Source: Streptomyces sp. NBC_00878 (GTDB lineage: Bacteria; Actinomycetota; Actinomycetes; Streptomycetales; Streptomycetaceae). Taken from it: a stretch of DNA of 64,000 nt. The stretch's first letter is position 1, and each line of letters starts with the position of its first letter. The notes beneath the pieces were generated by a model that did not search any database, was not told the DNA's origin, and saw nothing but the letters and a program-made list of their open reading frames with translations. A program made the translations under genes and the position numbers. This document shows, in pieces, positions 6,455 through 20,326 of this stretch. The DNA lies in the NCBI RefSeq assembly GCF_026341515.1, contig NZ_JAPEOK010000001.1, positions 9,362,001-9,426,000 of the forward strand. Direction: 5' to 3'.

Positions 6455-7086
6455 GCCGCTATCTCGACCACCTCCCGGCGCCGTTCCGGGAGGACCCGTT
6501 CGCCGGCGCGTTCCTGCTGGCGTTCGAGGCCGTGCTGACCGGCCGCGACGACGCCGAGGGCGTCACGGGCCTCGAACAGCTCATCGAGCGCTCCGCCGAC
6601 TCCATCGACCCGCTGACCACCGGTGAGGAGTTCCTGCCCTGGCTGGCCGGCTGGGTCGCGTTGAGCCTGCGCGCGGACTGGGACACGGACACCAAACGCG
6701 GGTTCATCCGGGAGGTCGTGCCGCTGTACCGGCAGCGGGGCACCCTGGCCGGGCTGCGCCGGATGCTGGAGATCTACCTGCGGCCGCTGGACGACGGTGT
6801 CACCCGCGACGACGTGGTCGTCTTCGACGAGTTCGAGACACCCGCCCACTACTTCCAGGTCCAGCTGACCCTCGGCGACACCGACCCCGGACGGCTGCGC
6901 CGCGTCCAGGAGATCGCCAGGGCGATCATCGACCGGGAGAAGCCGGCCCACACCTTCTACGCGCTCAAGGTCGTGGTGCCCACGATGCGGCTGGTCTCCG
7001 AGGAACTGCGCGAACGCGAGGGCGGCGTACCGGAGTTGCTCATCCTCGGCGAGAACTCCCAGCTCGGCACCCGCGACTCATCCTGA
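6451..7086 (+). CDS. Phage tail protein I-like baseplate protein
   Basis: A 211-aa protein of the P2 gpI tail-protein family. It opens with YLDHLPAPFREDPFAGAFLL, continues with the diagnostic PLTTGEEFLPWLAGWVALSL and with REVVPLYRQRGTLAGLRRML, and closes with a beta-strand region (HYFQVQLTLGDTD). In P2-like and injection-system baseplates this protein links the wedge to fibres. It is ATGA-coupled to the gene upstream; the next gene follows after 17 bases with its own strong ribosome binding site. Confidence 0.9.
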   Translation: MSRYLDHLPAPFREDPFAGAFLLAFEAVLTGRDDAEGVTGLEQLIERSADSIDPLTTGEEFLPWLAGWVALSLRADWDTDTKRGFIREVVPLYRQRGTLAGLRRMLEIYLRPLDDGVTRDDVVVFDEFETPAHYFQVQLTLGDTDPGRLRRVQEIARAIIDREKPAHTFYALKVVVPTMRLVSEELREREGGVPELLILGENSQLGTRDSS

Positions 7087-7103
7087 CATTCGGAGGAAGC
7101 CCG

Positions 7104-8921
7104 ATGGCGGACTACACCCAACCCGACGTCGTACCGAAGCGCGTCCGCTTCTTCGACGGGCAGTTCCTGAAGGAACAGGACTTCATCGACGAACAGAGGT
7201 TCCACCTCGACCGCGAGCGTCGGCAGAGCCGGCTGCTGCGGCTCACCGGCATCAGCGTCGGCCTGACGGTGACCTCGGACGCCGAGCGCCAGATCACCGT
7301 GACCGCCGGCATGGCGGTGGACGCGCTCGGCCGGCACCTCGTCCTGGCGGCCGACACGGCCGTGCAACTCGACGAGGACTTCGCCGACCAACAAGGCATC
7401 GAGGTGCACCTGGCCTACCGGGAGTCCGCGTCGGACATGACGCCCGAAGGGGCGCCCGGCGGGGCGGGAGCGCGCCGCTGGGACGAGAGCCCCAGGATCG
7501 TGGTGGTGGCCCCGGACGGCACCACCATGGTCGCCCCCGACGACGCCTCGCCAGACCTGGACGGCCAATCGGTGCTGCTCGCGCGGCTCGCGGTGGCCAA
7601 CGGCCAGGTCGTGGTGGACCTCATCGCGGCACAACGCTCCACCCTCTCCGTCGCGGGTGCGCTCGGCATCGGCACCACCGCCCCCGGCAGCGACCTGGAG
7701 ATCGGCGACTACGGTCCGCAGGACCGGCACCTGACGTTCAAGGTGGCCGGCGGCGACGGCCACCGCAGCGGGCTCCGGCTGCGGGCCGGGTCGGAGAACG
7801 ACAACGAGGGCTACTCCCTGGAGTACGACCGGCGGCCGGTCGCGGGGCAGGGCCTGCACGTCAGGACCCACGGTCCCGACGATCCCGAGGGCGGCACGAC
7901 GAGGCTCTTCGTCGACCCCGGAGGCGATGTCGGCATCGGCACCACCACACCGGACAACCAAGGCGAATGGGACCGGGTCCTCGACCTGGCGGGCGCCGCG
8001 AGAAGCAAACTGTCCGTGCGGACCGCCACCGTCGCGGGGCACGTGGCGGCGCACGACACGGGGGTGTACGGAGCGTCTCCCGGCATGGTCGTGGGCACCG
8101 CGTCCGTCAGCCCGCTGACCCTGGTCACGGGCAGAGCGGCCCGGCTCAGCGTCACCGCCACCGGTCACGTGGGCATCGGCACCACCGCTCCGCAGGTCAC
8201 CGGGGGGTGGGGCCGGGTCGTCGACGTAGTGGGTGCCGGCCGCACCAAGCTGTCCGTGCGGACCGCGAGCGTGGACGGGCGCGTGTCGGTGAACGACCTG
8301 GGGGCCTCCGGCGTGGCCAGCATGGTCGTGGGCACCGAGACCGCCACCCCGCTGAGCTTCGTCACCACGGGCAGCAGTCGGTTCACCATCGGCGCCGACG
8401 GCAACATCTCCATGGGCAGTGATCCGTTCACAGCCCGATGGACGACCAAGCACGTCGACACCCACGAACCCGCGGAGCCTCACCTGAGGCTGCATCGGGA
8501 CGACACGACCTCCGGCGGCAACCGGTTGTTCCTGGAGCTCTTCCAAGGCCACGGGAATCCTCTTCAGACAGACGTCTACCCCAGCATCCGGTTCCACCAC
8601 AGCACCAGATACTGGCACCGCATCGAGGGGCGGCGCGACGGGCTGCACATCAAAACCGGGAGCATGGCCAGTGACGCCCACACCGACCTCTGGGCCTGGG
8701 GAGTCCATGCCGAGTCACTGACCATCGGCGCGGTCACCATCGGCGCGGCCGAGCTGGCCGTGCTGAAGAAACTCGCCGCAGGACAGCTGAGCGTCACGCT
8801 CTTCAACGTCCCCAAAGCGACGTACGCCTTTGTCTCCAGTGATCCGATAAGTGGGACCACGCACGAGGTTTGGGCGAATCCCGGCGGCTCCCACCCCTGG
8901 GTTCTCAAGCCCCTGGTTTAG
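7104..8921 (+). CDS. Putative fibre-like injection-system protein with GIGTT repeats
   Basis: A 605-aa protein with GGAGGAAG upstream of the ATG. Residues 1-110 form a conserved-looking head (RVRFFDGQFLKEQDFIDEQR) that I know only from injection-system clusters. From residue 188 there are repeats beginning GIGTT at residues 188, 277 and 357. The last two units are about 80 residues each and near-identical in pattern (KLSVRTA, then MVVGT, then a glycine-rich turn), as in trimeric fibres. The C-terminus is a separate beta-rich domain with little similarity to anything I recognise. Position after tail protein I suggests a fibre or baseplate decoration; host-receptor binding is inference. Confidence 0.7.
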   Translation: MADYTQPDVVPKRVRFFDGQFLKEQDFIDEQRFHLDRERRQSRLLRLTGISVGLTVTSDAERQITVTAGMAVDALGRHLVLAADTAVQLDEDFADQQGIEVHLAYRESASDMTPEGAPGGAGARRWDESPRIVVVAPDGTTMVAPDDASPDLDGQSVLLARLAVANGQVVVDLIAAQRSTLSVAGALGIGTTAPGSDLEIGDYGPQDRHLTFKVAGGDGHRSGLRLRAGSENDNEGYSLEYDRRPVAGQGLHVRTHGPDDPEGGTTRLFVDPGGDVGIGTTTPDNQGEWDRVLDLAGAARSKLSVRTATVAGHVAAHDTGVYGASPGMVVGTASVSPLTLVTGRAARLSVTATGHVGIGTTAPQVTGGWGRVVDVVGAGRTKLSVRTASVDGRVSVNDLGASGVASMVVGTETATPLSFVTTGSSRFTIGADGNISMGSDPFTARWTTKHVDTHEPAEPHLRLHRDDTTSGGNRLFLELFQGHGNPLQTDVYPSIRFHHSTRYWHRIEGRRDGLHIKTGSMASDAHTDLWAWGVHAESLTIGAVTIGAAELAVLKKLAAGQLSVTLFNVPKATYAFVSSDPISGTTHEVWANPGGSHPWVLKPLV

Positions 8922-12432: not shown

Positions 12433-14016
12433 TCAGGGGCGTGCCGGCCCGCCCTCCCGTAGCCGGCGCCGCAGGATCTTGCCGGAGGCCGCCTTTGGCA
12501 CCGCTTCGATGAACTCGACCCGGCGGATCTTCTTGTACGGGGCGACCTGGCCCTCGACGTGGGTCATCACCTCGTCGGCGGTGACCGACGCCCCGGGCAC
12601 CGGCACCACGAACGCTTTGGGCACCTCGTTGCCTTCCTCGTCATCGACGCCGATCACCGCCGCGTCGGCGATGCCGGGATGGTTGAGGAGGATCGCTTCG
12701 AGTTCGGCGGGCGCCACCTGGTAGCCCTTGTACTTGATGAGTTCCTTCACCCGGTCGACGATGAACCAGTTCCCGTCCTCGTCGACCCGACCGATGTCGC
12801 CGGTGTGCAGCCATCCGTCGACGTCGACCGTCGCGTCGGTGTCCTCGGGGCGGCCGAAGTAGCCCTTCATCACCTGCGGTCCCTGGATCCACACCTCGCC
12901 GGGTTGGCCTGCCGCCACGTCCAGCCCGGTGACCGGGTCGACCAGGCGCGCCCGAGTCGACGGGAGCAGGTGCCCCACGCACGCGATGGGCTCGTCGAGG
13001 TTGCCGTCGGCATGGAGATGCGAGGCGGGAGACAGCTCGGTCATTCCGTACGCCTGCCCGATCTCCACACCCAGCCGGTCGGCCACCGCCGCCTGCACCC
13101 CCGCGTCGAGCGGCGCCGCGGCACAGATGATGCGTCGAAGATTCGACAGGTCCAGGTTTCCGACCGCGGGGTGCTTGGCCAGGGCCAGCATCACCGGCGG
13201 GGCGACGTACGCATGGGTGATGCGGTCGCGCTCCAGGCTGGTCAGGAACGCGTCGAGATTGAACCGGGAGTGCACGTAGACGGTCGCACCACGGTGCAGC
13301 GCGTTGTTGACCAGGGCAGTCAGCCCGAAGATGTGGAAGAAGGGCAGGATCGCGATGACACGGTCGTTCTCGCCGACCCGATGCAGACCGTTCATCTGCT
13401 CGAGGTTGGTGCACAGGTTGCGGTGGGTCAGCATCACGCCCTTGGGCACGCCCGTCGTGCCGCTCGAATAGGGCAGCACGGCGACGTCCACAGCCGGATC
13501 GAGCTCGAACGCCGGCACGTCGCCGTCGCAGAGCAGCCCCAGCACCGGACGGTGGCCGTCGGCCGTGTCGCACACCAGGATCTCGATGTCCCGGCCGGTC
13601 TGCCGCCGGACCAGCTCGACCGCGGCCCGCGCCGTCTCGATCAGCGCGGACACACTCACCATCAGACGCGCCTCGGCGTCGATCAGCTGCTTGGCGATCT
13701 CAGCCGGTGTGGCCAGCGGCGACAGCGTGGTCACCGTCCCGCCCGTGATGGTGGTGGCGTAGAGGACCACGGGGAACAGGATCGTGTTCGGTGAGTGCAG
13801 AGCGACCACGTCACCCTTGCCGATGCCTTCGGCGGCAAGGCCTGCCGCCAGTTGGCGGACCAGCGTGGCCAACTCACCGTAGGTGAACGTCTGTCCACTG
13901 GACACGTCCACCATGGCCGGCCGGGTTCCGCGCCGCGCGGCATCGCCGAGCACCCATTCATGGACGGGACGATCGATGACTGTGACATCCGGGTACTTGC
14001 TGTTGTAGATCATCAA
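12433..14016 (-). CDS. 4-coumarate-CoA ligase-like AMP-forming enzyme
   Basis: A 527-aa protein of the ANL superfamily, of normal length. The AMP-binding signature PYSSGTTGVPKGV is near residue 184, YGMTELSPASH is the second core motif, GYQVAPAELE (about 430) is the 4CL-type hinge, and PKAASGKILRR near the C-terminus carries the catalytic lysine. It should adenylate a carboxylate, probably an aromatic or fatty acid, and pass it to CoA. GGAG lies eight bases before the ATG pair. The upstream gap contains tandem element copy C in the same relative orientation as copy B has to its gene. Confidence 0.9.
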   Translation of the reverse strand: MMIYNSKYPDVTVIDRPVHEWVLGDAARRGTRPAMVDVSSGQTFTYGELATLVRQLAAGLAAEGIGKGDVVALHSPNTILFPVVLYATTITGGTVTTLSPLATPAEIAKQLIDAEARLMVSVSALIETARAAVELVRRQTGRDIEILVCDTADGHRPVLGLLCDGDVPAFELDPAVDVAVLPYSSGTTGVPKGVMLTHRNLCTNLEQMNGLHRVGENDRVIAILPFFHIFGLTALVNNALHRGATVYVHSRFNLDAFLTSLERDRITHAYVAPPVMLALAKHPAVGNLDLSNLRRIICAAAPLDAGVQAAVADRLGVEIGQAYGMTELSPASHLHADGNLDEPIACVGHLLPSTRARLVDPVTGLDVAAGQPGEVWIQGPQVMKGYFGRPEDTDATVDVDGWLHTGDIGRVDEDGNWFIVDRVKELIKYKGYQVAPAELEAILLNHPGIADAAVIGVDDEEGNEVPKAFVVPVPGASVTADEVMTHVEGQVAPYKKIRRVEFIEAVPKAASGKILRRRLREGGPARP

Positions 14017-14558
14017 AGACTCCGTTTTCTCGCTTTGCTCTGTCAGTCAGAACCCAGGGGTTTCCGGCTGGGCGGCACCGGACCTGGGACCGTGCGGTCT
14101 GCCGGGGTCTGGTTGTGCGGTGACCATCTGGTTGTCCCCTGTGGGTCTTCCGCCAGGACGCCGTCACGTCTGTCGGGCCCTTGCCGGAGCGGTTATCGGT
14201 GTTTTGTGGGGCCGGCAGCGCCGACTCTGAGCGAAACGGTCTGACAGGATCGTCGGAACGTGTGTTCCGATCGTCGGGCCTGCCGCCGGGCCACCGCTTG
14301 GTGGAACTCTGAGGCTTCTCTGAGGAGGGGTTGAGGGCGGCCGCAGCCAACAGGTCGTGGTCGGCGAAGAACGTCAGCGGCTCCTGTCGGCGAGGGTGGT
14401 CCGGTCGCTCGTGCAGGGCGACTTGCCTGTGCGGGCACACCGACGCGGTCACATCGTCATCACCGGCTTGATGGCGGCAGGGATGGGGTGCTGGGGGAGG
14501 GCGTTGTAGTGTCTACGGCGTCAAATGGCGGGCGCCGAACCACTGGAGGCAACACCTC
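14017..14558. other. Divergent promoter region between the CoA ligase and rpoA-like genes
   Basis: There is no acceptable frame in these 542 bases. The region holds tandem element copy C (14308-14325) and must contain both divergent promoters. A frame on the minus strand at 13958-14452 is explained by the extended copy B/copy C repeat and not by a gene. Confidence 0.55.
14308..14325 (-). promoter_or_regulatory. Tandem TCTGAGG element, copy C
   Basis: TCTGAGG at 14308-14314 and 14319-14325 are spaced 11 bases apart, with flanking CTTGGTGGAA shared with copy B. It reads CCTCAGA-N4-CCTCAGA towards the CoA ligase gene, which starts about 290 bases away. Confidence 0.5.
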
Positions 14559-15572
14559 GTGCTCATTGCTCAGCGTCCGTCCCTGACCGAAGAGGTCGTC
14601 GACGAGTTCCGCTCCCGGTTCGTGATCGAGCCGCTGGAGCCGGGCTTCGGCTACACCCTCGGCAACTCCCTGCGTCGTACGCTCCTTTCCTCGATCCCGG
14701 GCGCCGCGGTCACGTCCATCCGTATTGACGGTGTCCTGCACGAGTTCACCACCGTGCCGGGCGTCAGGGAGGACGTCACCGACCTGATCCTCAACATCAA
14801 GCAGCTGGTCGTGAGTAGTGAGCAGGACGAGCCGGTCGTGATGTACCTGCGCAAGCGGGGTCCAGGTCGGGTCACCGCTGCCGATATCGACCTGCGGGCC
14901 GGTGTCGAGGCGCACAACCCCGACCTGGTCCTCGCCACGCTCAATGGCAAGGGCAAGCTGGAGATGGAGCTGACCGTCGAGCGCGGTCGCGGCTACGTCT
15001 CCGCCGTCCAGAACAAGCAGGTCGGTCAGGAGATCGGGCGCATCCCGGTCGACTCGATCTACTCGCCCGTTCTGAAGGTCACGTACAAGGTCGAGGCGAC
15101 GCGTGTCGAGCAGCGCACCGACTTCGACAAGCTGATCGTCGACGTCGAGACCAAGCAGGCCATGCTTCCGCGTGACGCCATGGCGTCGGCCGGCAAGACC
15201 CTGGTGGAGCTGTTCGGTCTGGCCCGCGAGCTCAACGTCGAGGCGGAGGGCATCGACATGGGTCCGTCCCCGACGGACGCCGCTCACACTGCCGACTTGG
15301 CTCTGCCGATCGAGGAGCTCGACCTCACCGTCCGCTCCTACAACTGCCTCAAGCGCGAAGGCATCCACTCCGTGGGTGAACTCGTCGACCGCTCCGAGGC
15401 CGACATGCTCGACATCCGCAACTTCGGTGCGAAGTCCATCGACGAGGTCAAGGCGAAGCTCGCCGGCATGGGCCTGGCTCTCAAGGACAGCCCGCCCGGA
15501 TTCGCCCCGACCGCCGCCTACAGCGCGGACGACGATGCGGACGCGGGCCTCGTCGAGACCGAGCAGTACTAG
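14559..15572 (+). CDS. rpoA: RNA polymerase alpha subunit, second stand-alone copy
   Basis: A 337-aa protein with a GTG start and CTGGAGG upstream. It is full length. The N-terminal assembly domain has [20 protein letters not shown] and [20 protein letters not shown]. The C-terminal domain has [20 protein letters not shown] and [20 protein letters not shown]. The acidic Streptomyces tail ends VETEQY. Every motif needed for dimerisation and for contacts with UP elements and activators is present. Housekeeping rpoA lies inside the ribosomal protein cluster, normally between rpsD and rplQ. Here no ribosomal gene is nearby, and the flanks are a CoA ligase and a STAS gene. It is therefore most likely a duplicate, although the window cannot show the other copy. 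Confidence 0.93.
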
Positions 15573-15680: not shown

Positions 15681-16046
15681 TCAGTCCTGGTGTGAGGTTT
15701 CGCAGGCCCGGGCCGCCTCGACAACGGTGGTGTACAGAAAAGTCGGTCGGCCGAGGTCCGCGGTCTCGAAGGCGCTTCGCGCATCCGACCCCGCGACCAG
15801 GGCCAGCGTGCCGCCCTCGGCTCGGATCTTTTGGCGTGTCGCGGCCAGCAGTTGGATACCGACGGTGTTGAAGTGTGTCACCCGTTCGGCATCGACCACG
15901 AAGCGGCGGTGTCCCACGCGCAGGAGCCTGACAAGCGGCCCGCACAACAAGGGCGCCGTAGTCGCATTGAAGACTCCTTCCGCTTCGACGACCAGCAGGC
16001 CGACATCGGCCCAGCGAGGGGTGAGCCGTAGCGGCTGTACCTCCAT
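15681..16046 (-). CDS. STAS-domain protein (anti-sigma factor antagonist-like)
   Basis: A 121-aa protein with a GGAGGG site upstream of the ATG. The fold is STAS-like: GLLVVEAEGVFNATTAP as the first strand and helix, HRRFVVDAERVTHFNTVGIQ as the phospho-switch region, and a LALVAGSD strand. The usual D-S pair is replaced by N-T in HFNTVGIQ, so it may still be threonine-phosphorylated or be locked. It should bind an anti-sigma ATPase in a partner-switching pathway. Its partner is not adjacent; a HATPase gene lies at 38160 and another STAS gene at 62205. Confidence 0.75.
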   Translation of the reverse strand: MEVQPLRLTPRWADVGLLVVEAEGVFNATTAPLLCGPLVRLLRVGHRRFVVDAERVTHFNTVGIQLLAATRQKIRAEGGTLALVAGSDARSAFETADLGRPTFLYTTVVEAARACETSHQD

Positions 16047-16362
16047 GTCCGCCCTCCGCCTGCCGGGTGGTAGGTGTGCGAAGCCCGGGTCGTCCCACAG
16101 AACAGAGAGCCTCGCTGCTTCGCCTGCCCCGTCTCCGTCGCGTCATGCGGGTCTGATGTGGTCGAAGCCATGGCGAGTGCCCGGCATGGTGGGATCGGCA
16201 GATGAGAATCGCGGCACGGTCTGGACCTTCCCCGCAGCGTGACTGCGCGGAGTCCCGACACCGCTACGTTGTCGGGGTCGCAGAGGACACGTCGGTGTGC
16301 CGGAGGAGATCCCTCGATCTCGCCCTGCCGACCACCCACACCAACATCCCGCTCGCGAAACG

Positions 16363-16530
16363 CCGTACGACCTGCCGCACTCGGCCCGGTCCACCTGCCT
16401 GTGTGCGGGCGCGGACCAGGCCGAAGCCGCCCAGCGGTCCGGCAACAGCGTCGAGGCTTTCCTGCCCCAGTACGCGAAATGCCAGTATGACCGGCAACCC
16501 ATCAACTACCAGCGCATCGAAGGGCCGTTG
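16363..16530 (+). pseudogene. Tyrosine recombinase (integrase) C-terminal remnant
   Basis: The frame reads PYDLPHSARSTCLCAGADQA, then RSGNSVEAFLPQYAKC, then INYQRIEGPL. Streptomyces integrases have PYDLRHSA at the catalytic R-x-x-H position and GNSVEVLLSRYAKC around the catalytic tyrosine. Here the tyrosine is kept but the arginine region reads LPHS, and nothing of the N-terminal 300 residues is recognisable in any frame. It is a decayed end of a prophage or integrative-element integrase. Confidence 0.75.
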
Positions 16531-16614
16531 AGCGCTACGACCGATGGCCCTAGACGGACCACTGACGGCCCGGACTGAAAGGGTCGACCCCATCGATGAG
16601 GAGCTCGCCCAAAC

Positions 16615-16946: not shown

Positions 16947-18002
16947 GTGACGTTTCCGTATCTCCTTGAGCGGCGCAGACGCGTGACAGGCTGCCGACGG
17001 TGGTCTGCCGCTGCGGAAAGAGGGGCGAACATTCAGAGCCAGCCCGCGACAATCCTCGACGGCCACCCCGGTCGGCCGGAGGCGAGTCGTGCCCTGGCCT
17101 GTGTCAGGGCTGGGGCGTTCGCCCTGGCCGGCAGTGTCCTTGCAGCCCTGGGGCATGTCGCTGTCGCCGGCGGGGCGGTGCCGTGGCGGTTCGTGTTGCT
17201 CTTGGCGGGGGCGCAGTTCATCGCGGTCTGGCCTGTTGCCCGTCGGCGCTTCTCGTTCCCCGCAGCTCTGGGATGCGCTCTTGCCGTGCAAGGCGTGCTG
17301 CATCTGGTGTTGACGATCATGGGCGAGCGGGATCCCGAGAGGAACTTCCGGGTCGGCCACGCCGCTCACGGCATGCCCGGTCATGCGGCCATGGCGGACG
17401 GTCCTGCCTGGCAGCACGCTTGTACGACCCTGACCGCCGTCCACGTGCTGGCCGCACCGGCGGTGGCCTGGCTGCTGCACAGTGCCGACGCCGCTGTGGC
17501 AGCCGCCATGGCCATCACGCGTGCCGTGCGCGGCATCGCGGCCACCGTCGCCGCCTGGGTCCGCTCGCTACGGACGGGCGTTCAGGTCCGCTCCTTGCCC
17601 GCCGTACCTCTCACCGAATACGCCGCGCCTCACGCGCGGGCATGGACACATTCCCTGGAGCACGCGCTGGTGCGCAGGGGACCACCGGGACACGCCCACG
17701 TCCCGAGTCGTCCCTCACCCGGGCGGCCCCCACGGGCCGCCCGGCTGTCCCGCAAGGAGCATCTCTGTGTCCGTGCACCACGCTGCCCGCGCGGCGGGCC
17801 GTGTCGCCGCGGCCGGCGCCGCCGCGCTGACGGCCGCCCTGGCCCTGGCCGATCCCGCCTCCGCTCACGCGGAGGTCGAAGCCGACGCCCCGCGGGCCCT
17901 GGCCGAGAACGTCACACTCACTTTCGTCTCCGAGGCGGAGTCGGACACCGCCGGTTTCACCGAACTGCGCGTCGTCCTGCCCGACGGCATCGCACCGGGT
18001 GA
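16947..18002 (+). CDS. Copper-cluster membrane protein, with a run-through tail
   Basis: The frame encodes about 270 gene-like residues. It has transmembrane segments (ALAGSVLAALGHVAVAGGAV, then FVLLLAGAQFIAVWPVA, AALGCALAVQGVLHLVL and TTLTAVHVLAAPAVAWLLHS) and a His/Met patch (HAAHGMPGHAAMAD). It is a paralogue of the protein at 20446, with the same layout and a shared VRRGPP ending. After that ending the frame runs on for about 90 arginine-rich residues and overlaps the YcnI gene by 236 bases, which suggests a lost stop or a small indel. The start is uncertain: GTG at 16947 or 16983, neither with a clear site. Confidence 0.55.
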   Translation: MTFPYLLERRRRVTGCRRWSAAAERGANIQSQPATILDGHPGRPEASRALACVRAGAFALAGSVLAALGHVAVAGGAVPWRFVLLLAGAQFIAVWPVARRRFSFPAALGCALAVQGVLHLVLTIMGERDPERNFRVGHAAHGMPGHAAMADGPAWQHACTTLTAVHVLAAPAVAWLLHSADAAVAAAMAITRAVRGIAATVAAWVRSLRTGVQVRSLPAVPLTEYAAPHARAWTHSLEHALVRRGPPGHAHVPSRPSPGRPPRAARLSRKEHLCVRAPRCPRGGPCRRGRRRRADGRPGPGRSRLRSRGGRSRRPAGPGRERHTHFRLRGGVGHRRFHRTARRPARRHRTG

Positions 18003-18513
18003 CGTCACGCTCGCCGATGCACCCAAGGGGTGGAAGCTGAAGCCTGGCGACGACGGTTACGCCGTCGCAGGCCCTGCCCTCAGAACCGGAGTCGACGCCG
18101 AATACAAGGTCAGGGTCCGGCAGTTGCCGGACGCCGGGCAGCTCGTGTTCAAGACCCTCGAGACCTACGGCGACGGCGAGACCGCCCGCTGGATCGAGCT
18201 GCCGGGCGGCGGCGTGGAGCCCGAGCAGCCTGCTCCCGTGTTGAAGCTGCGGGCTGCGGCATCAGGCACGGCCTCTTCCGACCCGAGTCCGTCCGCCAGC
18301 GGCCCGTCCGCCAGCGGCCCGTCCGCCGAAGCGACGGACGCCCGGCTTGCCGGGAAGACAGCGACTGCTCAGGAATCCGGGTCGTCCGCCGGCCTGATAG
18401 TCGGCTCCGCGATCGCCGTGCTGCTCGTGCTGGGCGGCGGCGCGTGGTGGCTGGGCAGGCGCCGAGTCTCCTCGGGAGCATCCGATGTCCCCGCAGCCGA
18501 CCCGGAGTCCTGA
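17767..18513 (+). CDS. YcnI-family (DUF1775) copper-binding protein
   Basis: A 248-aa protein. The GTG start follows AAGGAG at seven bases. A signal peptide ends at AHA, so the mature protein begins at His34 in HAEVEADAPRALAENV; the N-terminal histidine is the known Cu(II) ligand of YcnI proteins. The DUF1775 domain runs to about residue 170 (VKVRQLPDAG-type strand, ARWIELPGGG). A Ser/Pro linker with tandem SGPSA repeats follows, then one transmembrane helix (LIVGSAIAVLLVLGGGAWWL) and a basic tail. It is likely a membrane-anchored extracellular copper chaperone working with the CopCD fusion that starts two bases later. Confidence 0.9.
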   Translation: MSVHHAARAAGRVAAAGAAALTAALALADPASAHAEVEADAPRALAENVTLTFVSEAESDTAGFTELRVVLPDGIAPGDVTLADAPKGWKLKPGDDGYAVAGPALRTGVDAEYKVRVRQLPDAGQLVFKTLETYGDGETARWIELPGGGVEPEQPAPVLKLRAAASGTASSDPSPSASGPSASGPSAEATDARLAGKTATAQESGSSAGLIVGSAIAVLLVLGGGAWWLGRRRVSSGASDVPAADPES

Positions 18514-18514
18514 C

Positions 18515-20326
18515 GTGGAACGACGACACGTGAACGAGAGCGGTCACATCGGCAGGGCGTTGCTGGTGGTGGTCGCCGTACTCGCGGGTGTCCTGCTCGG
18601 CGGCGCGGCACCGGCTTCGGCGCACGCGGTGCTGACCGGCAGCGACCCGCGCGAGAGCAGCGTGCTCAAGACGGCGCCGAAGCAGGTCACGGCCACATTC
18701 AATGAGTCCGTCAGCCTCGCCGAGGACTCCCTGCGTGTACTCGACCCCGACGGCCGTCCGGTGACCGCGGGCGACCCCGCGCATGCGGACGGCAAGAGGG
18801 ACACCGCCCGCGTGGCGTTGACCGGCGGTTTGAAGGAGGGCACGTACACCGTCTCCTGGCGGGTGCTGTCGGCGGACAGTCACGCCGTCTCCGGTGCCTT
18901 CGTCTTCTCCGTCGGCGCGCCCTCGCAGACCCGTGCCGAGGCCGCCGCCGAGTCTGCCGTGGACTCCGTGGTCGACGTGCTCTACGGCATCGGCCGCTAC
19001 GTCGCCTATGCCGGCCTGGCCCTGTTGATCGGCCTGGCGGTGTTCGTCCTGGTCTGCTGGCCCGAGGCCACCTCGCTACGGGGAGTGCGCAGGCTGTTCC
19101 TGGCCGGGTGGTGGGCGCTGGCGCTGTCGACGGTCACGCTGCTGCTGGCACGCGGACCGTACGCGAGCGGGGATGGGCCGGCCGGGGTGTTCGACCCGCG
19201 GCTGCTGCGGAGCACGGCGGAGAGTCGGCCGGGCGTCGCGCTGCTGGTCCGCCTGGCCCTGCTCCTGCTGATCGCTCTGCTCCTGAGGAGGCGTGACCGG
19301 TCCGAGTGGCAGGCCGACCGGCGTAGGGCTGCGGGGGGCTGTGCTCTCGCCTTTGGCCTGGCCGGGACCTGGGCGGTGGCCGAGCACGCCTCCACCGGCA
19401 TTCAGGTACCGGCGGCGATGGTCTCGTCCGTACTGCACCTGCTGGCCATGGCGGTGTGGCTCGGTGGTCTGACGGCGCTGCTGGTGGCTCTGGTGCGGGC
19501 CCCGGCCGACAACCCGCTCCCGCCCGCCGCCGTGGCACGCTTCTCCCGGCTCGCCCTCGTCTCCGTAGCAGTGCTGGCGGCCACCGGTGTGTACCAGTCC
19601 TGGCGCGGGCTCGGCTCCTGGGAGGCGTTCACCACCCCGTACGGCAGGACGCTCGCCCTGAAGGTCGGGGCCGTGACGCTGATGCTGGCGGCTGCGTCGT
19701 ACTCCCGGAACTGGACCGAGCGGCTGCTGCACGTGCCCCGGGAGGAACCGGTGCTGGTCACGGTGGGCGGCGACGAAAGTCCTCCGCCCGACCGGACGGA
19801 TGAAACCGGTACGGCCGGGCCTGGCTCTCAGGAGCAGCGGCGCGGCCTGCGCAGGTCCGTATTGGCCGAGGTGGTGATCGGTGTCGTGGTGCTCGCGGTG
19901 ACGACTGTACTGACGGGGAGTCAGCCAGGCCGGGCCGACGCCGAGACCGTGGCGGCTTCCCGGGTGCCCGGGCGGCCCGATGTGAACCTGACGATGGTGC
20001 CGTTCGACACGGGCGCCTCGGGCCGCACAGGGAGCGGCAGGGTGCAGATCACCCTGCAGCCGGGCCGGGTCGGCCGGAACGTGGTGGAAGCCACCGCCTA
20101 CGGCGCTGACGGAAGCCTCATCGCCATCCCCGAACTGCGCCTGACCCTCACCCACTCCGAGCAGGGAGTCGGACCGCTCGATGCCGGACTCGCCGACCAG
20201 AGCGGCTACTGGGGCAGCGACAACCTCAGCCTCCCGATCGCTGGGACGTGGATGATGCGGGCGACCGTCCGCGTCTCCGATATCGACCAGGTCACCGTGG
20301 AGGAGACCGTGAACATCATCCCCTGA
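18515..20326 (+). CDS. CopC-CopD fusion copper resistance/import protein
   Basis: A 603-aa protein. The GTG at 18515 has GGAG seven bases upstream inside the YcnI end; ATG 18485 and GTG 18530 are alternatives. A signal peptide ends AHA, so mature CopC begins HAVLTGSDPRESS with the copper-binding histidine; DSHAVSGAFVFSVG supplies the second. Then follow about eight CopD transmembrane helices (for example GIGRYVAYAGLALLIGLAVF and LHLLAMAVWLGGLTALLVAL). A C-terminal extracytoplasmic beta domain begins at LTMVPFDTGASGRTGSG. The family moves copper across the membrane; whether it imports or protects is not decided by sequence. Confidence 0.92.
   Translation: MERRHVNESGHIGRALLVVVAVLAGVLLGGAAPASAHAVLTGSDPRESSVLKTAPKQVTATFNESVSLAEDSLRVLDPDGRPVTAGDPAHADGKRDTARVALTGGLKEGTYTVSWRVLSADSHAVSGAFVFSVGAPSQTRAEAAAESAVDSVVDVLYGIGRYVAYAGLALLIGLAVFVLVCWPEATSLRGVRRLFLAGWWALALSTVTLLLARGPYASGDGPAGVFDPRLLRSTAESRPGVALLVRLALLLLIALLLRRRDRSEWQADRRRAAGGCALAFGLAGTWAVAEHASTGIQVPAAMVSSVLHLLAMAVWLGGLTALLVALVRAPADNPLPPAAVARFSRLALVSVAVLAATGVYQSWRGLGSWEAFTTPYGRTLALKVGAVTLMLAAASYSRNWTERLLHVPREEPVLVTVGGDESPPPDRTDETGTAGPGSQEQRRGLRRSVLAEVVIGVVVLAVTTVLTGSQPGRADAETVAASRVPGRPDVNLTMVPFDTGASGRTGSGRVQITLQPGRVGRNVVEATAYGADGSLIAIPELRLTLTHSEQGVGPLDAGLADQSGYWGSDNLSLPIAGTWMMRATVRVSDIDQVTVEETVNIIP

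Follow-up and report, generated by a model that had tools for sequence, protein, structure and literature searches.

An accessory family of stand-alone rpoA genes scattered over chromosomes and plasmids of Streptomyces

The alpha subunit of RNA polymerase is generally regarded as the product of a single-copy core gene, and this gene is used as a phylogenetic marker. In the passages concerned, Mukhamedyarov et al. (2011, PMC3294249) place S. avermitilis MA-4680, with two rpoA genes, among several such organisms in the 1055 genomes searched, and their Discussion calls this second gene, which comes from the same genus as the genes described here, fairly recent. Those passages do not speak of a family, carriage on plasmids, a leader, gene conversion or a C-terminal domain (CTD) pattern for S. 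avermitilis, whose second gene is likened to ours by description, not by sequence. The same source describes alpha1 and alpha2 of Francisella, likewise two alpha genes per genome, there with a mixed-alpha RNA polymerase. As for leader RNAs, the rpoA-containing ones in the relevant passages of PMC7247131 are S4 leaders of other phyla. The present analysis concerns a stretch of 64,000 nucleotides from Streptomyces sp. NBC_00878 (the window), in which a complete rpoA stands outside the ribosomal operon.

Three rpoA genes in one genome

The gene, termed copy W, lies at 14559..15572 on the forward strand and is given in the open reading frame list as an alpha subunit of 337 residues with a GTG start, a TAG stop and the C-terminus VETEQY. 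The Pfam domains RNA_pol_L (PF01193), RNA_pol_A_bac (PF01000) and RNA_pol_A_CTD (PF03118) each score above the cut-off, which makes up the complete set of dimerisation, insert and C-terminal domains of bacterial RpoA. The protein shares 94% amino acid identity with the top-scoring RpoA of other genomes in the genus and matches the structures of actinobacterial housekeeping RpoA (7vpd and others) over its full length (670 bits, residues 1-337 to 1-340). Its neighbours, both on the reverse strand, encode an AMP-binding CoA ligase (12433..14016; Pfam) and a STAS-domain protein (15681..16046; open reading frame list and Pfam). The preliminary description of a full-length rpoA away from the ribosomal operon, flanked by these two genes, is thus confirmed. 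It had also named rpsD and rplQ as the usual neighbours of rpoA, which is correct for rplQ but not for rpsD: the housekeeping rpoA of this genome sits between rpsK and rplQ, and no rpsD-sized open reading frame was found between rpsK and rpoA.

Three copies of rpoA are present in the genome: W, the housekeeping copy H (C1:6491535, in the order rpsM-rpsK-rpoA-rplQ), and a second extra, copy X (C1:3390222). The presence of H confirms a ribosomal-operon rpoA elsewhere in the genome and rules out W as the sole rpoA in a rearranged locus. A wholesale duplication of RNA-polymerase genes was rejected as well, rpoB, the gene searched, being single-copy. All three rpoA sequences differ from one another. 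W and H share 88.3% nucleotide identity, with 118 nucleotide differences over 337 codons (dN 0.035, dS 0.49, NG86), and of the 337 aligned residues of their proteins 21 differ, counting the start residue; the tail has a 3-residue gap besides. X and H share 93.7% nucleotide identity (dN 0.017, dS 0.23).

The CoA ligase gene and its upstream neighbour form a homologous block also found in three other genomes (G401, G103 and G119), none of which has an rpoA beside the block within the ~1.5 kb examined. As candidates for an empty site, these genomes matched the left block, and the right flank was without a match there. We also note copper-type genes (DUF1775, CopC-CopD) at window positions 17482-20326, a few kilobases from W, and a 230-bp stretch that is found, 83% identical and inverted, downstream of W (window 16315-16542) and upstream of X (L005 5067-5296).

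An accessory rpoA family in the genus

With W as the query, an RpoA match was obtained in 390 of the 392 genomes of the genus and two or more matches in 82, a count in which some multiple matches are fragments of one gene. Re-searching 79 of these 82 multi-match genomes yielded 70 extra loci from 63 genomes, the present one included, with two extras apiece in seven; an extra rpoA is therefore carried by at least 63 of 392 genomes (16%). The other 16 re-searched genomes have second matches that are fragmentary or at contig ends and fall outside the 70. Since the 70 are full-length or nearly full-length matches, the fraction of broken copies is uncertain. Sixty-eight are intact; those of G406 (L133) and G266 (L134) are truncated or interrupted, and were counted among the 70 and left out of the 68. 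These two are diverged, shortened, paired in the tree and preceded by odd leaders, and L134 has a STAS gene nearby, like W. A further broken member, L170 of S. phaeoluteigriseus, has a frame shift past about residue 100. Outside the genus, 14 of 16 genomes gave a single match, the exceptions being G048, with two fragments on one contig, and G051, with none; in a second set, which has 15 genomes in common with the first, 22 of 24 gave a single match and the rest none or fragments.

Plasmids carry the gene too. By tblastn, rpoA was found on 87 PLSDB plasmid records (21 Streptomyces, 79 kb to 2.35 Mb), and the largest Streptomyces records may be secondary replicons. Eight of the 21 loci were viewed; in seven the annotation reads RNA polymerase subunit alpha, and one lies in an annotation-free stretch. 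Seven of them (L195-L201) start with ATG and are preceded by a leader that differs slightly, and the leader of L202 is of the GTG type. In two of the eight (L197 and L198), ssb and an HTH gene are found a short way upstream of rpoA; zeta-toxin and AbiE-type genes are near L197 and a terminal-protein gene is near L198. A search with the leader pattern returned 29 stretches in named genomes, 28 from Streptomyces and one from Actinobacteria bacterium OV320, with S. noursei A-2-1 and strain RB17 each represented twice.

The extras have no genomic setting in common. The most frequent non-rpoA neighbour cluster occurs at 6 of 70 loci, at offsets scattered from -5.7 to +7.3 kb, and several shared neighbours are seen in some genome pairs only. 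The idea that rpoA moves together with a gene cluster or mobile element was rejected, as there are no conserved neighbours (open reading frames of at least 90 aa called by GC3, over ~7 kb where the contig allowed). A phage origin was likewise rejected: among the best 20 of 23 matching phage records, the well-covered ones have 41-50% identity and the sole actinobacterial phage 27%. Two identical extras of one genome (L120 and L121, G278) each lie ~609 kb from a chromosome end, as expected for long terminal inverted repeats.

These data show that the genus has an accessory rpoA family, with members dispersed among its chromosomes and plasmids. W is full-length, lies outside the ribosomal operon, and has the GTG start, the GTCTACGGCGTC leader and the CTGGAGGCAAYACC ribosome binding site of the family. 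In the coding-sequence tree it forms a starred trio with L069 (G185) and L113 (G332), nested in starred all-extra sets of 13 and 25 rows. No description of a genus-wide family was found in the literature searched on extra rpoA; the single second rpoA of S. avermitilis has been in print since 2011. The observation is real and reaches further than the preliminary description stated.

Leader, gene conversion and C-terminal domain

The upstream region distinguishes most extras from housekeeping genes. A GTG start is used by 57 of 70 extras, as against ATG in 79 of 79 housekeeping loci of the genus (a set that contains the L053/L165 repeat and a few more), and GTCTACGGCGTC occurs within 90 nt upstream of 35 of 70 extras and of none of the 79. 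Among the 13 ATG extras, three (L091, L119 and L123) have a housekeeping-type leader. The motif TACCCTT, a putative -10 box, is present within the same 90 nt in 48 of 70 extras and 64 of 79 housekeeping loci, and hence is not unique to extras. It precedes X and H and is absent before W, as the exact motif is from 21 other extras. Homology between W and X begins at 14506..14515 (forward strand, blastn); the box of X and H lies upstream of this point and has been replaced in W. A sigma-70-type scan, which covers one promoter type, revealed no promoter upstream of W.

A 22-nt hairpin with a 7-bp stem and a loop that is mostly AAATAGYG was found in front of every one of the 92 housekeeping loci examined, with L080 and same-class relatives among them (the search pattern fixed the loop, not the arms), and also before W, X and H. 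In W it occupies 14516..14537 on the forward strand, with the 8-nt loop AAATGGCG, as supported by covariance model R1, folding and covariation. The ribosome binding site GGAGG follows at 14545..14549 on the same strand, inside the extra-family motif CTGGAGGCAACACC and separated from the start codon by 9 nt; both elements are intact in W. When the whole genome was searched with R1, the best three of nine matches were located before the three rpoA genes (E 2.1e-6, 3.8e-5 and 6.0e-4), the second of these being that of W. Use of the hairpin elsewhere was rejected, the fourth and fifth matches (E 0.022 and 0.31) being within long open reading frames of the opposite strand (542 and 601 aa) and taken as chance.

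In 26 distinct housekeeping versions of the hairpin, without L080, 98.9% of cells pair, and both-side changes amount to 27 cells versus 6.8 in shuffles and 0-2 in slid controls; in these versions four stem pairs show a both-side change, a count that is not above that in shuffles (3.5). Inclusion of L080 gave a like result. The hairpin of the extras is looser: 31 of 106 lack a pattern match, and in 24 distinct matching versions the outermost pair is formed in half and the inner six pairs in 88-100%. A search of the three loci against Rfam, with E allowed up to 1, gave no match to the hairpin, and folds of single sequences show no unusual stability (z -1.30 to -0.01). On this evidence, the hairpin looks like a candidate new cis-regulatory RNA of the rpoA mRNA; a part in autoregulation by alpha would be guesswork. 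Between housekeeping rpoA and rplQ lies the known L17 leader (RF03132; L001 2573-2629).

Gene conversion by the resident rpoA was assessed in 32 of the 63 genomes, those for which the housekeeping locus was also retrieved, using one extra each (W for this genome). At synonymous codons in the range 76-225, the own housekeeping copy is nearer to the extra than the median of others in 30 of 32 genomes (p 2.5e-7, with genomes treated as independent) and the nearest of all in 22, the mean synonymous distance being 0.062 to own and 0.173 to other copies. The corresponding counts are 28 and 16 for codons 2-75, and 26 and 10 for codons 245-312 (means 0.148 versus 0.214), so conversion does not spare the CTD. 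Among the 22 genomes with assemblies of at most six contigs, the own copy is nearer than the median over codons 76-225 in 20 and nearest in 15; broken assemblies therefore do not account for the signal. The ratio of own to other distance is 0.26-0.37 over codons 102-226 and 0.50-0.66 before them; it is ~0.7 for the CTD and reaches 0.95 at the final position of the sliding analysis (33 genomes, L080 included). The extras are not one group in the coding-sequence tree, which requires 27 label changes, at least 17 of them forced by starred branches, and many extras pair with the housekeeping copy of their own genome although most leaders are of the extra type. Label changes number 34 in the tree of the N-terminal domain (NTD; 15 forced, 672 columns) and 15 in that of the CTD (2 forced, 219 columns). 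X illustrates the pattern: its codons 157-236 are identical to those of H, with many differences on either side, and H ranks first of 55 canonical copies for codons 76-225, 26th for codons 2-75 and 29th for codons 245-312. Codons 76-225 have thus been repeatedly overwritten by the resident rpoA, while leader, CTD and tail tend to stay family-specific. The middle-heavy profile could be purely mechanical in origin, and selection for the pattern is therefore not claimed.

W presents another picture. Ordered by closeness to W at synonymous codons, H ranks 54th (codons 2-75), 52nd (76-225) and 50th (245-312) of the 55 canonicals. Since H is among its most distant canonicals, W comes from another lineage and has not been converted, and a recent duplication of the resident rpoA is rejected on the same ground. 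The preserved ribosome site had been read in the preliminary description as duplication of the whole coding unit; a unit larger than the coding sequence has indeed moved, with ribosome binding site and structured leader, but it is no duplicate of the genome's own rpoA. The grouping of W with extras is unstarred in the NTD tree, and its nearest rows in the short CTD tree are canonicals. Over residues 2-312 the protein differs from the housekeeping consensus at 16 positions, which places it among the eight most diverged of the 70 extras. Its private changes comprise 10 replacements and 8 silent ones (approximate ratio 0.43) and include L104R, A111D, P113R and A277D.

The CTD is where the family departs from the housekeeping gene. 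Figures below are from recounts on 55 canonical rows where these were made and otherwise from 57 rows (CTD change counts, contact residues and dN/dS), which include one gene repeated as L053 and L165; L080, classed as canonical by its downstream rplQ and truA, was dropped together with L053 in the recounts, and the results hold. Housekeeping residues 245-312 are invariant across the 55 rows. From the housekeeping consensus, the 68 intact extras differ by 5.9% in the CTD, 14.0% in the tail and 1.24% in the NTD (6.0%, 14.0% and 1.35% for all 70). Recurrent CTD changes among the 70 are I269V (55), A307G (33), V276L (32), M304L (23), A248V (21) and E255D (19); we take E255, by numbering, to be E. 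coli E261. The seven positions presumed equivalent to the DNA-contact residues R265, N268, C269, G296, K298, S299 and E302 of E. coli are unchanged relative to the housekeeping protein in 68 of 68 extras, W included. Among the seven signature positions W carries E255D alone. Of the positions singled out in the preliminary description, the 261-type is changed in W and the 265-type is kept, as are the other presumed contacts.

By NG86 on 120 random pairs each, dN/dS is 0.067 (NTD) and 0.100 (CTD) between extras, and 0.034 and 0.019 between housekeeping genes; the last value is an upper bound, because NG86 yields a dN of 0.0065 though no residue varies. Mean dS between extras is 0.26 in the NTD and 0.37 in the CTD. 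Private changes, replacement to silent, are 76:93 in the 68 extras versus 3:23 in the 55 housekeeping rows. The extras are constrained, yet less so than the housekeeping gene, and the divergence of their CTD could reflect relaxed constraint.

Locus L080 of G166 (7001-8023) is an observation apart, in which rplQ and truA follow an rpoA whose GTG leader is of the extra type. No match to rpsK or rpsM was found within 7 kb upstream, and further rpoA fragments of this genome end at contig ends. The locus reflects either chimeric assembly or genuine recombination of one rpoA copy with another.

Proposed explanation, alternatives and known systems

We propose that W is a horizontally acquired member of the accessory, stand-alone Streptomyces rpoA family. 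The unit that keeps its identity would be ~1.1 kb long and consist of leader hairpin, ribosome binding site and coding sequence, preceded in most members by the promoter-like TACCCTT box that housekeeping copies often have too. A transcribed member would yield an alpha with an N-terminal assembly domain near-identical to the resident one, which, to judge from this identity, could be built into the resident enzyme within a mixed dimer or a homo-dimer; the supply of alpha would rise, and part of the polymerase would bear C-terminal domains that differ slightly. We infer from the sequences that extra alphas enter RNA polymerase in this way and alter transcription. X, with its TACCCTT box and with codons 157-236 equal to those of the housekeeping gene, would fit the working state and appears a better candidate than W for a working second alpha. 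W, having no box, being unconverted and changing fast, is probably weakly expressed or decaying; an unrecognised promoter may still drive its expression. The suggestion in the preliminary description that W replaces the housekeeping alpha under some conditions is disfavoured by its foreign origin, the loss of the TACCCTT box and its private changes (10:8); a condition-specific second alpha would fit the family and X better than W. The acquired W, the working X and the weak or decaying W, taken together as one explanation, are held with moderate confidence. We put forward only tentatively that the alpha is a mobile one that retains a promoter, leader and CTD of its own and has its assembly region continually reset by conversion to fit the local polymerase, which would amount to a transferable swap of the regulatory domain.

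It is possible, though we incline against it, that the extras are neutral or selfish passengers, in which plasmid copies land, are tolerated as near-identical, are homogenised by chance and decay slowly, with W on its way out. Plasmid carriage, the absence of a common genomic context, the relaxed constraint on recent changes, the broken members (G406, G266 and L170) and the missing box of W are all as such passengers would have them. Nevertheless, only 2 of the 70 extras are clearly broken despite the mean dS of 0.26 and 0.37, and per site replacement is at least ten-fold rarer than silent change (dN/dS 0.067 and 0.100).

Somewhat more doubtful is a specialised role, with extras expressed in some condition to give an RNA polymerase with altered CTD contacts. 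The recurrent substitutions against an invariant housekeeping CTD, E255D at the presumed E. coli E261 position among them, the retention of DNA-contact positions in 68 of 68 and the own leader and start codon of most extras argue for it. The substitutions are, however, conservative and largely common by descent and need not be functional, the CTD dN/dS of ~0.10 versus 0.02 in housekeeping genes is equally explained by relaxed constraint, and W has one signature change of seven and no promoter-like box.

The alpha dimer is the starting point of RNA-polymerase assembly, and an extra copy could act as a gene-dosage device by which very large genomes or plasmid carriers obtain more alpha. Two observations would agree with this: codons 76-225 are near-identical to those of the resident gene, and median genome size is 10.0 Mb among the 79 re-searched genomes (rounded sizes; multi-match genomes only). 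We regard it as unlikely: large genomes carry more accessory genes generally, and beta is single-copy here, so alpha alone would rise. That W is an assembly error or contamination is very unlikely: no sign of either was seen in this genome, and it is contradicted by the position of W with its own flanks inside a 10.2-Mb contig of a genome 99.98% complete with 0.23% contamination, the three mutually different rpoA sequences, the recurrence of its family in many other genomes and named records, and a conversion signal that persists in the genomes of at most six contigs.

If at least one sixth of the sampled Streptomyces have a patchy, mobile second alpha, mixed polymerases may be at work in many of these bacteria, and plasmids may change the transcription of their hosts by way of a core subunit. 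Trees based on rpoA and reference assays could then be misled by extras and gene conversion. The diverged CTDs of the extras, set against the invariant housekeeping CTD, offer natural variants for testing activator and UP-element contact residues.

Compared with known systems, RF03132 (L17-Actino-Proteobacteria leader), as described in the passages concerned of PMC7247131, is a cis-acting RNA of the same housekeeping operon; it sits before rplQ, whereas the present hairpin sits before rpoA. According to the relevant passages of PMC3294249, the two alphas of Francisella have diverged in dimerisation and beta/beta' contact residues and form mainly a heterodimer. The Streptomyces extras differ in that codons 76-225 are near-identical to the resident gene and the CTD is what differs; the two alpha pairs arose separately. 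The rpoA pair of Chloroflexus, in the same passages, also lacks drastic change in the dimerisation or beta/beta' regions. That pair is described there as ancestral in its species, in contrast to the Streptomyces extras, which are patchy within the genus and are also found on plasmids.
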